From Methylopila sp. M107 (GTDB lineage: Bacteria > Pseudomonadota > Alphaproteobacteria > Rhizobiales > Methylopilaceae), in the NCBI RefSeq assembly GCF_000384475.1, contig NZ_ARWB01000001.1, positions 3,289,039 to 3,353,038 of the forward strand: 64,000 nt of DNA, given 5' to 3'. The position numbers and the translations under genes are program-made. Positions 19,183 through 28,556 of the stretch are shown here, piece after piece. The notes beneath the pieces are model-generated. The model had not been told where the DNA came from and did not search any database. It was given only the letters and a program-made list of their open reading frames with translations. Every line of letters starts with the position of its first letter. Positions within the stretch are counted from its first letter, which is position 1.

Positions 19183-21099
19183 GTGTCAGTCCCGGCCACC
19201 ACATCGCTGCTCGACCGCGTGTCGTCCCCGGCGGACCTCAAGGGTCTTTCGGACGACGATCTGCGTCGCCTCGCCGACGAACTCCGGCAGGAGACGATCA
19301 GCGCCGTCTCGGTCACGGGCGGGCATCTGGGAGCCGGGCTCGGCGTCGTCGAACTCACGGTCGCGCTGCACCACGTGTTCGACACGCCGAATGACCGCCT
19401 GATCTGGGACGTCGGCCACCAGTGCTATCCGCACAAGATTCTGACCGGCCGGCGCGACCGCATCCGCACGCTGCGCAAGGGGGGCGGGCTCTCCGGCTTC
19501 ACCAAGCGCTCGGAGAGCGACTACGACCCCTTCGGCGCGGGTCATTCCTCGACGTCGATCTCGGCGGGCCTCGGCATGGCGGTGGCGCGCGACCTCAAGG
19601 GCGCGGATAACAACGTCGTGGCGGTGATCGGCGACGGCGCGATGTCGGCCGGCATGGCCTATGAGGCGATGAACAACGCCGGCGCGCTGGGCTCGCGCCT
19701 CATCGTCATCCTCAACGACAACGACATGTCGATCGCCCCGCCGACGGGCGCGATGTCGGCCTATCTCGCGCGGCTCGTCTCGGGCCGCACCTATCTGTCG
19801 CTGCGCGACATCGGCAAGGGGCTCGCAAAACGCCTGCCGAAATTCGTCGAGCGCGGGGCCGCGCGCGCGGAGGAATACGCCCGCGGCTGGGCGATGGGCG
19901 GCACGCTGTTCGAGGAGCTCGGCTTCTACTATGTCGGCCCGATCGACGGCCACAATCTCGAGCATCTGCTCCCCGTTCTGAGGAACGTCCGCGACGCTGA
20001 GTTCGGCCCGATCCTGGTTCATGTCGTGACCAAGAAGGGCAAGGGCTACGCGCCGGCCGAAGAGTCCGACGACAAGTATCATGGCGTCTCGGCCTTCGAC
20101 GTTGTCTCGGGCGCGCAGTCGAAGCCCAAGGCCAACGCCCCAAGCTACACCAAGGTCTTCGCCGAAAGCCTGATCGCGGAAGCGAAGGCGGACGAGCGCG
20201 TGGTCGCCATCACGGCCGCGATGCCCGGTGGCACCGGCCTCGACCTGTTCGGCCAGGCGTTTCCCGATCGCACCTTCGACGTCGGCATCGCAGAGCAGCA
20301 CGCGGTGACCTTCGCGGCTGGGCTCGCGGTCGAGGGCCTGAAGCCGTTCTGCGCGATCTACTCGACCTTCCTGCAGCGCGCCTACGACCAGGTGGTGCAC
20401 GACGTCGCGATCCAGCACCTGCCGGTCCGCTTCGCGCTCGACCGGGCGGGGCTCGTCGGCGCCGACGGCGCGACCCATGCGGGCGCCTACGACCTCGCTT
20501 ATCTCGCCTGCCTGCCCGACTTCATGCTGATGGCGCCGGCCGACGAGGCCGAGCTCGTCCACATGGTCGCGACGGCCGCGGCCTATGACGAGGGGCCATG
20601 CGCCTTCCGCTATCCGCGCGGCGAAGGCGTCGGCGTCGAGCTGCCGGCGCGGGGCGAGGTTTTGCGGATCGGCAAGGGCCGGGTGATCCGCGAGGGAACC
20701 ACCGTCGCGCTGCTGTCGCTCGGGACGCGGCTCGCCGCCGCGTCGGAAGCCGCGGAGGAGCTCGCGCTCAGGGGCGTCTCGACGACGGTCGCGGACGCGC
20801 GCTTCGCGAAGCCGCTCGACCGTGAGCTCATCCTGTCGCTGGCGCGGAGCCACGAGGTGCTGCTGACGGTGGAGGAGGGGTCGTCCGGCGGTTTCGGCGC
20901 TGGCGTGCTGCAGCTTCTCGCAAGCGAGGGCGCGCTCGACCGGGGCCTCAAGATCCGCACGCTCGTCCTGCCCGATCGCTACATCGACCACGACAAGCCG
21001 GAGAAGCAGATCGCGGCCTCAGGCCTCGACGCCGCGGCGATCGCGGCCGCGGCGCTGCAGGCGCTCGGCCGGGAGACGAAGGCGGCGCTGAGGGCCTGA
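19183..21099 (+). CDS. dxs: 1-deoxy-D-xylulose-5-phosphate synthase
   Basis: 638 aa from GTG 19183. First enzyme of the MEP isoprenoid pathway: pyruvate plus glyceraldehyde 3-phosphate to DXP, thiamine diphosphate- and Mg-dependent, cytoplasmic homodimer. Signatures: [51 protein letters not shown], the TPP/Mg motif [45 protein letters not shown], and the transketolase C-terminal domain. Length and order match the family fully. Diverges from the second extensin gene. Confidence 0.97.
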
Positions 21100-21188: not shown

Positions 21189-21797
21189 ATGACACTGAGA
21201 CCGGCCGCTATCGTGTTTTGCGCGGCGCTTCTCATCCATTGCTCCGCCGCGTCCGCGGATCAGGTCGGCGCCGCGGTGGTCGACGGACGGATCGTCATCC
21301 TGAACTCGGACAACACATGGGCCTACGCCGACGCGCAAAAGCAGAGCGCGGCCGGCTGCGATCGCTTCCCGGGCGTGGAGCTCTGCGTCAAGGACTTGGG
21401 CTGGGCGTCGGTCGACAAGGTCGGCGCCTTCCAGGCGCTCTACCGTGTCGGCAGCCAGTACTATTTCGGACTGGTGCGCGAGCCTTACGGCGCAAAGGCC
21501 GGCGTGACGCTCCAGGCGCTGCGTAGCGCCATCGTGCAGAACGCGGCGCTGGCGGCGAAGACGACCGTGGACAAGGTTCCGGTTCTGGAAGTCTCGACCG
21601 AGGTGGCTGGGATCCCGCAGGCCGAGGCCGTCACCTATACGGTCCAAATGTCCGGACTGCCGCTCATCTATCGGAACATCTTCAGGGTGAAGGACGACGA
21701 GAGCATGCAGATCGTGTTCTGGAGCGTCGGCACGACCATATCGCCGGAGTTCAAGGCGAAGATCGACGACACGGTCGCCAAGATCAAAATCGACTGA
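21189..21797 (+). CDS. Secreted protein of unknown function
   Basis: 202 aa with a signal peptide (MTLRPAAIVFCAALLIHCSA, cleavage near ASA-DQ; the Cys does not sit in a good lipobox). The mature start VVDGRIVILNSDNTWAYAD is the short 'DGR-V-L-DNTW' strand pair found in several periplasmic proteins. Two Cys (CDRF, LCVKD) are 11 residues apart and probably form a disulfide. No catalytic motif recognised. It is 89 bp downstream of dxs but unlikely to be functionally linked, and converges on the minus-strand gene pair below. Confidence 0.7.
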   Translation: MTLRPAAIVFCAALLIHCSAASADQVGAAVVDGRIVILNSDNTWAYADAQKQSAAGCDRFPGVELCVKDLGWASVDKVGAFQALYRVGSQYYFGLVREPYGAKAGVTLQALRSAIVQNAALAAKTTVDKVPVLEVSTEVAGIPQAEAVTYTVQMSGLPLIYRNIFRVKDDESMQIVFWSVGTTISPEFKAKIDDTVAKIKID

Positions 21798-21853: not shown

Positions 21854-22411
21854 TCAGCGCGGCGGCGTGACGTCTTTCGCGAGCTCTTCGAACTCGCGGC
21901 GGAGAATGCCGAAGCGAACCTTCGGTCCCTCGCAGACGAGCGAGGCGCCGCCCTTCGGCGTCTCCCAGAGGATCGTGAGCGAGCGCCGCTTCTGGCCGGG
22001 ATAACCCACGAGGTCGCCGCGGCGATCCGAGACGATCGCGATCGCGGACAGCCCCTCGGATCGGCTAGGGTTGAACGGCGCGGCGGAGACGAACGCTCGT
22101 CCCTTGGCCGCGGGACCGGCGCGCCATTTCGCGGCGACCTGTTTCACGCCCGCTCCCTCGGCGCCTCGCGCGGTCTCGTCCGGCGCGAATGTTGCCGTGC
22201 AGAACACGCCCTCGTCTCCGGCGCGCTTGAGCGTGACGCCTCGGCCATCCGCCGGTTGCGCCGGCGTCTGGAGAAAGTTCGGCGGCACCTTCACCTCGAA
22301 GCCGCTCGCGTCGTCGCGGAAGTCGCCGCGCGGGCCGCCGGCCGCGAAAGCGAGCGGACCGGCGGCTCCGAGCGCGACCGCGACGGCAAGTCCGAAGCTC
22401 AGACGTCGCAT
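21854..22411 (-). CDS. Secreted protein of unknown function, tandem paralogue B (Cys form)
   Basis: 185 aa from ATG 22411, chosen because it opens MRRLSFGLAVAVALGAAGPL, a signal peptide ending FAAG. Mature Cys are in GVFCTATF and SLVCEGPK, suggesting a disulfide. The C terminus (TPKGGASLVCEGPK, then REFEELAKDVTPPR) aligns with the read-through end of the upstream gene (TPKGRTAVV-stop-VGEK, DAVVRGVTPPK). The two are diverged tandem paralogues with a 26-bp gap, likely one operon. Function unknown. Confidence 0.75.
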   Translation of the reverse strand: MRRLSFGLAVAVALGAAGPLAFAAGGPRGDFRDDASGFEVKVPPNFLQTPAQPADGRGVTLKRAGDEGVFCTATFAPDETARGAEGAGVKQVAAKWRAGPAAKGRAFVSAAPFNPSRSEGLSAIAIVSDRRGDLVGYPGQKRRSLTILWETPKGGASLVCEGPKVRFGILRREFEELAKDVTPPR

Positions 22412-22437: not shown

Positions 22438-22515
22438 TCACTTCGGCGGCGTCACGCCGCGCACGACGGCGTCGAACTCGCCCTTGCGCCGCGAAAAGCT
22501 CGCCTTCTCGCCGAC
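22438..22515 (-). other. Read-through extension of paralogue A after an in-frame TGA
   Basis: Directly after the TGA at 22516-22518 the frame continues for 25 codons to a second TGA at 22438-22440. The peptide, VGEKASFSRRKGEF then DAVVRGVTPPK, is clearly homologous to the C terminus of paralogue B (EGPKVRFGILRREF then EELAKDVTPPR). The TGA sits exactly where paralogue B has Cys. So this is the lost or read-through end of the gene, not a random open frame. Confidence 0.8.
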
Positions 22516-22998
22516 TCAGACGACCGCCGTGCGGCCCTTCGGCGTCTGCAGCATGACGAGCGACGCGCGGACCGCCGCGGCGCGCGCCGGAATGCCGGGG
22601 CGCTGCTTGATGTCTGCGACGATCTCGAGCCCCGCGACGTCGCCATACTGCACGGTCCGCGTCGCGCGCGGCGTGAAGAACACGCCGAGGATCGCGCGGG
22701 CGAGCTCGTGATATTCCTTCTGTCGCATCAGCAGGTTGACGCCGGCTTGCGTCAGCGCCTTGTTGGCGTCGCTCTTGGTGAATCCGACCTGGCAGCCCGT
22801 GTCGCGGTCCTCCGGGCGCTTGACCGAGACGAGCACCGAGTAAGATCCGCGGGGCGGGATCTTGGCCGCCGCGTAGCCCTGCGGCGGCGCGACCTTCAAC
22901 CCGCTGAACCAGTCCGAATAGGCCTGCGCGGAAGCAGGCGCGGCGGAGAGAAGCAACGCCGAGCAGAGCGCGGCGATACGGAAAGACGACGGTCGCAT
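22516..22998 (-). CDS. Secreted protein of unknown function, tandem paralogue A, ending at TGA in a Cys position
   Basis: 160 aa from ATG 22998 (MRPSSFRIAALCSALLLSAA, signal peptide ending ASAQA); the longer upstream frame adds 13 residues without a better start. The body has GCQVGFTKSD with a Cys matching GVFCTATF of paralogue B. Translation would stop after TPKGRTAVV at TGA 22516-22518, 25 codons short of the family end. Either this is a recent nonsense change that removes one half of a probable disulfide, or the TGA is recoded (selenocysteine or read-through). The TGA is followed within 5 nt by an 8-bp hairpin (one G-U) with a 5-nt loop. A plain nonsense mutation remains the simplest reading. 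Confidence 0.65.
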   Translation of the reverse strand: MRPSSFRIAALCSALLLSAAPASAQAYSDWFSGLKVAPPQGYAAAKIPPRGSYSVLVSVKRPEDRDTGCQVGFTKSDANKALTQAGVNLLMRQKEYHELARAILGVFFTPRATRTVQYGDVAGLEIVADIKQRPGIPARAAAVRASLVMLQTPKGRTAVV

Positions 22999-23119: not shown

Positions 23120-24298
23120 CTACACGGCGAGCCGGTGCGCGTCGAAGGCCGAGGCGGAGTGGGCGGTCATCGCCGGGTCGAAGTTGCGGAACGCGCCGCG
23201 CCCGGCGGACTTCGCCGCATAGAGCGCGAGGTCGGCGCGCGCGGACCACGCGGCCGCCGGTCCGCCGTCGGAAAGCGCGACGCCCGCCGAGGCGCCGATC
23301 TCCAACAGGAAGTCGCCGCGCGAGACCGGAACGCGCAACGCCTCGACGATGCGGCGCATGCGCCGGTTGATCTCGCTCCGGCTCAATCCGCGGTCGAACA
23401 GCACGGCGAACTCGTCGCCGCCGGTGCGCGCGACGAGCGTCGCGCCGCGGGCCGCCGCCGCAAGGCGTCGCGCGACCTCCTTCAGGCATTCGTCGCCCGT
23501 CAGGTGCCCGAACGTGTCGTTGACCTGCTTGAAGCCGTCGAGATCGATCAGCGCAAGCGCCGCGTCACGGTCGGCCGAAAGCGTCGCAAGCGTGTCCTCG
23601 AACAGCCGCCGGTTGGCGAGCCCGGTCAGCGCGTCCTGTTCGGCGAGCCGGCGGGCGGACTGGATTTCCGCGCGCTCCTCGGTCACGTCCTGCTTGACGC
23701 CGTAGAGCCGGACGGCTTGTCCCCGCTCGAGCTCGGCGACGCCGTTCAGCCGGATCCAGCGCCGTTCGCCCTTCGCGGTCTCGATCTCGGAGTCGATCCG
23801 GAACGCGCCGCCATTGGCCAAGGCTCCGGAGCGCGCCTCATCGAGCGCGACACGCGAGGCCGCCATGTAGCAGCCGAGCGTGTCCTCGCGGTGCAGCCGG
23901 GTTCCGGGGCCGAAGCCGAACAGGTCGTAGACCTCTCGCGACCATTCCAGCCGTTCGTCGCTCAGCCGGCATTCCCAGAGGCCGGCGCCGGCCGCAGCCA
24001 GGACCCGCCGCGTCTGCGCCCGTTCGCGCGCCAGCCGGCGGATCGCGCGCGCCTGCGCCTCGAGATCGACGCGCAGGGTGTCTCGGCTGCTGGCGAGGGC
24101 GTCGACGGACCGGCCATGGCGGATCGCGAGCGCCGCCCGTTCGGCGAGATCGGCGACCGCGCGCGCCTGCTCGGCCGAGAGCGGCGCGTCGAAGGCTCGC
24201 CGAAGCGACGCAATGACATGGCCGAGAGCGTCGTCGTCACGGTCCGCGCCGTGCGCCGGTCTGTCGCCGCACATTGCGGCCGGGGTCTCATGCGACAT
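23120..24298 (-). CDS. PAS-GGDEF diguanylate cyclase
   Basis: 392 aa, soluble, no membrane segment or signal peptide. The N-terminal 90 residues are helical; a PAS fold follows (GLWECRLSDERLEWSREVYDLFGF, ... WIRLNGVAELERGQAVRLYGVKQDVTEE), then the GGDEF domain (DALTGLANRRLFEDTLA, DLDGFKQVNDTFGH, VARTGGDEFAVLFDRG). The active-site GGDEF is intact, so it should make cyclic di-GMP from GTP. The RxxD inhibitory I-site five residues upstream is not present (RGAT), so product inhibition by that route is not expected. No EAL domain. Stands alone on the minus strand. Confidence 0.92.
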   Translation of the reverse strand: MSHETPAAMCGDRPAHGADRDDDALGHVIASLRRAFDAPLSAEQARAVADLAERAALAIRHGRSVDALASSRDTLRVDLEAQARAIRRLARERAQTRRVLAAAGAGLWECRLSDERLEWSREVYDLFGFGPGTRLHREDTLGCYMAASRVALDEARSGALANGGAFRIDSEIETAKGERRWIRLNGVAELERGQAVRLYGVKQDVTEERAEIQSARRLAEQDALTGLANRRLFEDTLATLSADRDAALALIDLDGFKQVNDTFGHLTGDECLKEVARRLAAAARGATLVARTGGDEFAVLFDRGLSRSEINRRMRRIVEALRVPVSRGDFLLEIGASAGVALSDGGPAAAWSARADLALYAAKSAGRGAFRNFDPAMTAHSASAFDAHRLAV

Positions 24299-26172: not shown

Positions 26173-26406
26173 TCACGTCGCCGGCGGGTTGAGCAGCATC
26201 TCGTGCGCCCGGCGGCGATAGTCGTCCTTTACCGGCTCGCTCGCGACCTCGAGCCCCTCGGTCGGCCGGCCGGCCTGTTCAAACAGCTTCGTGTCCCACA
26301 GCACGCCCGGCGGGTTCTCCGAACGGAACAGCTGCTTGGCGAAGGCCTCGACGATCTCCGCGCTCGGCTCCTCGGGCGTCTCCGCCGCGGCGTCGACCTC
26401 GCTCAT
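26173..26406 (-). CDS. Small acidic protein translationally coupled to scpA, unrecognised
   Basis: 77 aa. ATG at 26406 overlaps the scpA stop (ATGA, 26403-26406), so it is the third cistron of mutA-scpA-orf. Sequence begins [20 protein letters not shown]; acidic N terminus, then [27 protein letters not shown] broken by [14 protein letters not shown]. No Cys, no signal peptide, no membrane segment. The tight coupling suggests a role with the mutase (assembly, stability or substrate channelling), but this is inference. The longer frame on this strand that runs into scpA is a shadow. Confidence 0.7.
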
Positions 26407-28556
26407 TCGGCCGCCTGCGCGGGCGCGTAGCCATATTTCTGGTTGAGCATGCCGACCAGCTCCTTGGCGGCGTTCGCCACCACCGTGCCGGGCGGGAAGA
26501 TGAGGCTCGCGCCCGCATCCTTCAGCGCCGGATAGTCGACCGGCGGGATGACGCCGCCAACCACGATCATGATCTCGTCGCCGCCCTCCGCCTTCAGCGC
26601 GTCGCGCAGCGCCGGCACCAGCGTCAGGTGGCCGGCCGTCATGGTCGAGATGCCGACGACATGGACGTCGTTCTCGATCGCCTGCCGGGCGCACTCTTCC
26701 GGGGTCGCGAACAGCGGGCCGATGTCGACGTCGAAGCCGAGATCCGCGAAGGCCGAGGCGATGATCTTCTGGCCGCGGTCGTGGCCGTCCTGACCGACCT
26801 TGGCGACCAGAATGCGAGGCCGCCGTCCGTCGGCGCGCTCGAAGTCCTCGACCATCTTCTGCACTTCGGCGATCTGGCCCATGGCCTTGCCCTCGCGCTT
26901 GTAGACGCCGGAGATCGACTTGATCTCGGCGCGGTGGCGATCGAACACCTTTTCGATCGCCGTGGTGATCTCGCCCACCGTCGCCATGGCGCGGCCGGCC
27001 TCGATCGAGAGCGCGAGCAGGTTGCCGTCGCCGCGCGCGCCGTCCTCCAGCGCCTTTAGCGCGGCGTCGACCTTTGACTGGTCGCGCTCTTCGCGCAGGC
27101 GCTTCAGCTTCGCCTCCTGCGCGGCGCGCACCTCGGCGTTCTTGATCTGGCGAACGTCGAGCGTTTCGTTTTTCAGGACCTTGTAGGCGTTGACGCCGAC
27201 CACGACCTGCTCGCCGCTATCGATCCGCGCCTGCGTGGTGGCGGCGGCCTCCTCGATGCGCAGCTTCGGCACGCCGGCCTCGATCGCCTTGGCCATGCCG
27301 CCGAGCCGGTCGATCTCGGCGATGTGCTCCAGCGCCTTTTTCGCAAGGTCGTGAGTCAGCTTCTCGACATAGGCCGAGCCGCCCCACGGATCGATGAACT
27401 TGGTGGTGCCGCTCTCCATCTGCAGCACGAGCTGGGTGTTGCGGGCGATGCGGGCCGAGAAGTCCGTCGGCAGCGCCAGAGCCTCGTCGAACGAGTTGGT
27501 GTGGAGCGACTGGGTGCCCCCTTGCGTCGCCGCGATGGCTTCCAGCGTCGTGCGCACCACGTTGTTGTAGACGTCCTGCGCGGTCAGCGACCAGCCGGAC
27601 GTCTGCGAGTGCGTGCGCAGCGGCAGCGACTTCGGGTTCTTGGCGCCGAGGTCGGTCATGAGCTTCGTCCAGATCAGGCGCGCGGCCCGCATCTTGGCGA
27701 CTTCCATGAACACGTTCATGCCGATCGCCCAGAAGAACGACAGGCGCGGCGCGAACTTGTCGATGTCGAGGCCCGCCTCCATGCCGGCCCGCACATATTC
27801 CGCGCCGTCGGCCAGCGTATAGGCGAGCTCGAGGTCGGCCGTCGCTCCGGCCTCCTGCATGTGGTAGCCGGAGATCGAGATCGAGTTGAACTTCGGCATA
27901 TGCTGGGAGGTGTGCGCGAAGATGTCCGACACGATCCGCATCGAGGGCCGCGGCGGATAGATGTAGGTGTTGCGGACCATGAACTCCTTCAGAATGTCGT
28001 TCTGAATGGTCCCCGCCAGCTTCTCCTGCGGCACGCCCTGTTCTTCGCCCGCCACTATGAAGAGAGCCAGAACCGGCAGCACCGCGCCGTTCATCGTCAT
28101 CGAGACGGTCATCTTCTCGAGCGGGATGCCGTCGAACAAGGTGCGCATGTCGTAGATCGAGTCGATCGCGACGCCCGCCATGCCGACGTCGCCGGCGACG
28201 CGCGGATGGTCGCTGTCGTAGCCGCGATGAGTCGCGAGATCGAACGCCACCGACACGCCGGTCTGCCCCGCGGCGAGGTTCGCGCGATAGAAGGCGTTGG
28301 AGTCCTCCGCCGTCGAGAAGCCGGCATATTGCCGGATCGTCCAGGGCTGGGAGGCGTACATCGAGGGGTAGGGCCCGCGGATGAATGGCGCGAGGCCGGG
28401 CCAGGTGTCGAGGCCCTTCAGGCCTTCGAGGTCGCTCTCTCCATAAACCGGTTTGACCGGAATGCCCTCGGGCGTGGTCCACGGCTCGGCGCTCGCGTCC
28501 GGCGTCGCCGGGGTCGGCCGTTTCCAGTCGATCTTGGTGAAATCGGGCAGGCTCAT
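26403..28556 (-). CDS. scpA: Methylmalonyl-CoA mutase, large (cobalamin-binding) subunit
   Basis: 717 aa, the size of MutB/ScpA. It interconverts (R)-methylmalonyl-CoA and succinyl-CoA using adenosylcobalamin, in propionate and branched-chain degradation or the ethylmalonyl-CoA pathway. The substrate TIM-barrel has [20 protein letters not shown] and [19 protein letters not shown]. The C-terminal B12 domain has the base-off motif [13 protein letters not shown] (DxHxxG) then [17 protein letters not shown] and [15 protein letters not shown]. Starts by ATGA overlap with mutA (28553-28556). Confidence 0.97.

Follow-up and report, generated by a model that had tools for sequence, protein, structure and literature searches.

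An in-frame TGA at a conserved cysteine site in a putative exported protein of Methylopila sp. M107 is probably a nonsense mutation rather than a selenocysteine codon

An in-frame TGA that takes the place of a conserved Cys codon raises the question of whether it encodes selenocysteine (Sec) or simply ends the protein. The question is posed by gene A, found in the 64,000-nucleotide stretch of the Methylopila sp. M107 genome analysed here (the window). The initial annotation of this DNA offered both selenocysteine and a one-base nonsense mutation as readings. Of the two, mutation is favoured by the results below and selenocysteine is unlikely, though the machinery for selenocysteine insertion is present in the genome. 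The TGA of gene A is probably a recent nonsense mutation which truncates the protein.

The interrupted frame of gene A and its homologues

The features of the locus are collected in Table 1. The peptide encoded after the TGA, VGEKASFSRRKGEFDAVVRGVTPPK (25 codons), matches the C termini of all relatives, confirming the homologous continuation of the frame that had been noted at the outset. The TGA had also been placed opposite the Cys of the neighbouring paralogue, gene B, and the same alignment column was found to hold Cys in gene B and in every other homologue. The alignment with Cys and the homologous tail are more than chance. Third codon positions in the tail are G or C in 24 of the 25 codons. 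The description of genes A and B as a tandem pair was upheld, gene B being a real, though remote, paralogue with 25% identity to gene A over 165 amino acids and an E value of 6.7e-14 in the family profile search.

Table 1. Coordinates of gene A, its parts and its neighbours in the window.
Feature	Position	Strand	Remarks
Gene A, whole frame	22998-22438	minus	ATG 22998 to second TGA 22440-22438
Gene A, open part	22516..22998	minus	160 codons + TGA; signal-peptide-like N terminus, then PsbP-like domain up to last strand
In-frame TGA	22518-22516	minus	at conserved Cys161 site
Gene A, tail	22441..22515	minus	25 codons; rest of last strand and C-terminal helix; homologous to C termini of all family members
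Second stop, TGA	22438..22440	minus	usual end of family
Hairpin of the initial annotation	22491..22511 (arms 22511-22504, 22498-22491)	minus	8 bp, one G-U pair, 5-nt loop GCGAG from 12 nt after TGA
Gene B	21854-22411	minus	remote tandem paralogue of gene A; both conserved Cys kept
GGDEF-type gene	23120..24298	minus	upstream of gene A; named from visible motif; also next to the gene A counterpart in G009 and G011

The change from TGC to TGA is one base step. A single-base change can create a stop in gene A by 53 routes, three of them at Cys codons and one at Cys161. Given one nonsense mutation, a stop on exactly Cys161 is a coincidence of ∼2% (∼6% for any Cys). This carries little weight because cases of just such a kind were what the first reading of the DNA sought.

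The orthologue comparison proposed initially, in which Cys codons (TGC or TGT) would mean mutation and several TGA codons would support recoding, was carried out and favours mutation. All 27 of the other homologous sites read encode Cys (25 TGC, 2 TGT) and none has a TGA, which is confined to gene A. Of the 27 sites, 15 are from the genus, including a paralogue at 145.7 kb in the organism's own genome, and 10 belong to other genomes of the order; the last two are gene B and a Pseudoroseomonas locus. Positional counterparts of gene A adjoin the same GGDEF gene in two genomes of the genus, G009 and G011 (56–57% identity), and both have TGC. The family is present in all 13 genus genomes, compared at one per species and with M107 included; 61 genomes were searched and the 13 that matched were those 13. 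Across the order, 23 of the 397 genomes searched matched, and an internal stop was found in only one of 27 profile matches, that of gene A. A class-wide sample of 385 genomes gave a family match in the M107 genome only, a search of plasmids gave no match, and a scan of contigs gave no same-species record and one distant locus only, that of Pseudoroseomonas.

In the Sargasso Sea selenoproteome study (PMC1088965), the step from candidate to new selenoprotein family requires TGA at the site in one or more other homologues, and single-sequence cases are classed as candidates only, owing to possible sequence error. For gene A such a further homologue was absent from the 27 sites.

Selenocysteine machinery and the hairpin after the TGA

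The absence of selA, selB, selC and selD had been named as an observation that would refute selenocysteine. All four genes were found in the genome, which is one contig of 4,453,493 bases and 100% complete. The selA (1082522) and selB (1084743) genes adjoin, selD is at 2106726 and the selC gene for tRNA-Sec (67.1 bits, anticodon TCA) is at 2600992-2601085. A formate dehydrogenase (FDH) alpha subunit with one in-frame TGA is encoded at 1076528-1079575. The full set of selA, selB, selC and selD together with the TGA-bearing FDH gene indicates that the organism can insert selenocysteine. This capability, and the position of the TGA exactly on an invariant Cys with conserved flanks and tail, are in favour of gene A being a very young selenoprotein, that is, a periplasmic protein of PsbP fold in which Cys161 would have given way to Sec, paired with Cys69 in a selenenylsulfide and served by an atypical SECIS element. 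If this were true, the birth of a selenoprotein from a Cys protein by a single-base change would have been caught as a snapshot.

The FDH genes serve as a positive control. All 13 FDH loci of the group have a TGA that is followed at a distance of 19 nt by a GUC loop, and the element in M107 itself matches Rfam RF01989 at 82.7 bits (gathering 63). The stem beside the GUC loop displays a compensatory swap, GCGA-GTC-TCGC against GCCA-GTC-TGGC, which leaves the amino acids unchanged and is good natural evidence for the FDH hairpin. In one genome, G008, both FDH alpha copies (2031881-2034929 and 5192592-5195379) are split in two frames, which may be due to frameshift errors or to real breaks. Gene A is like the FDH alpha selenoprotein in that the Sec machinery is present and a TGA stands where homologues have Cys. 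However, its TGA occurs in one genome only and no SECIS match accompanies it. SECIS elements of different genes have little in common beyond the loop.

The initial annotation also described an 8-bp hairpin 5 nt after the TGA. The hairpin exists but its stem begins after 4 nt. Among 2000 synonymous re-codings of the tail, 316 had a stem of at least 8 bp within 32 nt, and so had 132 of 2729 codon positions in six neighbouring genes. For the 45 nt that follow the TGA, 392 of 1000 re-codings reached an equal or lower fold energy. The hairpin is ordinary for its sequence and not beyond chance. At 12 nt from the TGA, its loop falls short of the range of the bacterial SECIS model given in the Fig. 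2 legend of PMC13188914, where the apical loop is 16–37 nt after the UGA and has G in its first two positions, and it lacks the GUC loop common to the 13 FDH elements. A search of the whole window with Rfam at gathering thresholds gave one tRNA and nothing else, and a permissive threshold around the TGA of gene A gave four chance-level matches, none of them to a SECIS element. Given the re-coding controls, the lack of an Rfam match and the unlikeness to the FDH elements, the hairpin cannot serve as evidence of a SECIS element.

Weaker hairpins with an early loop G can be drawn at 16–37 nt, for example one with loop AGUUCGA at 37 nt within the overall MFE fold. In 5/16 Cys homologues a similar hairpin is present (36 nt, loop GAGTTCGA), which counts against selenocysteine. 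A strict SECIS scan, in which the hairpin alone had to reach ≤ -7.5 kcal/mol, passed none of the hairpins of gene A, 2/16 Cys-homologue sites and 152/892 sampled coding positions. The same scan missed 13/13 true FDH elements, so it is non-discriminating and gives no evidence against selenocysteine. According to the review PMC13188914, some true bacterial SECIS elements depart from the consensus model. With such departures, the weaker hairpins and the failure of the strict scan, structure alone cannot decide against selenocysteine.

Predicted fold, conserved cysteines and age of the stop

The N terminus of gene A resembles a signal peptide and the product is predicted to be exported. An AlphaFold2 model made from the family alignment had a mean pLDDT of 89.6 and a pTM of 0.82. 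Foldseek placed PsbP and PsbP-like proteins first (cyanobacterial PsbP 2lnj, E 5.0e-7, TM 0.57–0.61), and the 22 PDB matches at E ≤ 0.001 were mostly PsbP or PsbP-like. Further matches were to the envelope proteins LpqN and DcrB and to human Mog1. The predicted fold of the family is PsbP/Mog1-like, as in PsbP, Mog1, DcrB and LpqN-like proteins, but the sequence identity is 12% and there is no family sequence match. Sequence searches of Pfam, NCBIfam and the PDB gave no match over threshold, the sole Pfam match being DUF6950 at E 0.0028, below its cut-off. No redox enzyme was observed among the best fold matches, which argues against selenocysteine. Both Cys69 and Cys161 are present in 27/27 relatives and no other Cys is conserved; from this pattern the two probably form a structural disulfide. 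The stop of gene A lies in the predicted last strand (155–164) and removes the helix 165–180 (pLDDT about 96).

Decay of gene A, in the form of further lesions or a relaxed tail, was looked for and not found. The gene keeps 24/28 near-invariant columns in the body and 8/9 in the tail. Its mean identity to 13 genus homologues is 0.35 in the body and 0.58 in the tail, the same pattern as in the intact Pseudoroseomonas homologue (0.40 and 0.61), and in the intact counterparts of G011 and G009 the tail is less conserved (0.49 and 0.46). With its tail undecayed, gene A has either a young stop, a wrong base or a tail that is still translated.

In a tree made from 17 rows of the family alignment, 6/10 order-level homologues and gene B, the end branch of gene A measures 0.89 changes per column, the median being 0.19. 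Gene A joins the G009 and G011 copies at 87/91 only and may be their strict orthologue or merely their positional counterpart. The position of gene B in the tree is meaningless because of long branches. Neighbouring genes are well kept: the large one at 26.4-28.6 kb (26403-28556), which we take to be methylmalonyl-CoA mutase, at 91% and the next gene at 86%. The long branch of gene A despite such neighbours indicates a fast-evolving gene, possibly one under weak selection.

Explanations of the TGA and the surroundings of gene A

If the TGA is a nonsense mutation, the ancestral gene A would have encoded an exported protein of PsbP/Mog1 fold, about 186 residues long, with Cys69 and Cys161 in a probable disulfide. 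The Cys161 codon would recently have become TGA, a real stop, in this lineage. Translation would then end with residue 160, partway through the last beta strand, with the C-terminal helix and half of the probable disulfide lost, and owing to these losses the truncated product would probably be unstable or inactive. We infer the disulfide, the loss of function and, from the undecayed tail, that the mutation is young. The evidence for a mutation consists of the Cys codons at 27/27 sites, the TGC of the positional counterparts, the ordinary hairpin unlike a SECIS element, the long branch and the fold without a redox enzyme match. Against it stand the ability of the organism to use selenocysteine, the conserved tail with its G or C third codon positions, the lack of a second lesion and the small chance of hitting exactly the Cys161 site. 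Set against its intact homologues, gene A has the premature stop by which a pseudogene is recognised. It is like a nonsense pseudogene of a multi-copy family in having one stop, a frame which is otherwise intact, and intact copies in relatives and in its own genome. It differs in that the stop falls on a conserved Cys and that the genome decodes UGA as Sec elsewhere.

The alternative which survives best, though unlikely, is an intact gene A whose TGA stems from a base-call or assembly error. The single occurrence in one assembly and the undecayed tail without a second lesion would be expected of an error, and possible error is the reason for which single-sequence cases stay candidates in PMC1088965. 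The assembly, however, is a single complete contig of 4.45 Mb, and no other internal stop was found in the neighbours at 22.4-29.9 kb that could be compared with G009 and G011 in their own frames. Substitution errors are also less common than indels in such assemblies, which counts against an error here.

It is very unlikely that the 160 residues still encoded form a stable variant that functions, the tail being a relic. The end comes only 26 residues early, and the role of the family may be left to gene B and the 145.7-kb paralogue, but the stop within strand 155–164 costs the protein helix 165–180 and one of two Cys residues invariant in 27/27 relatives. Least probable of all is that Cys161 has been replaced by selenocysteine, given the lack of TGA at the other 27 sites and of any SECIS match at gene A beside the 82.7 bits of the organism's own FDH element. 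A TGA in place of Cys, a homologous tail, a hairpin and full Sec machinery are thus together insufficient for a selenoprotein call, which does not stand up to homologues and codon-aware controls.

The intact copy at 145733-146296 is close in the tree to the G009 and G011 counterparts, unlike gene A, and is likely to be the main family member of the genome. In G009 and G011 the next gene after the counterpart of gene A, read by eye at the end of the stretch, appears to be a dxs-like gene. In the window, gene B and a plus-strand gene of 202 amino acids (21189-21797) sit between gene A and the gene at 19183-21099, presumably dxs. Being present in the window and apparently not at this place in G009 and G011, these two genes look like a lineage-specific insertion, or else they were lost in the relatives.
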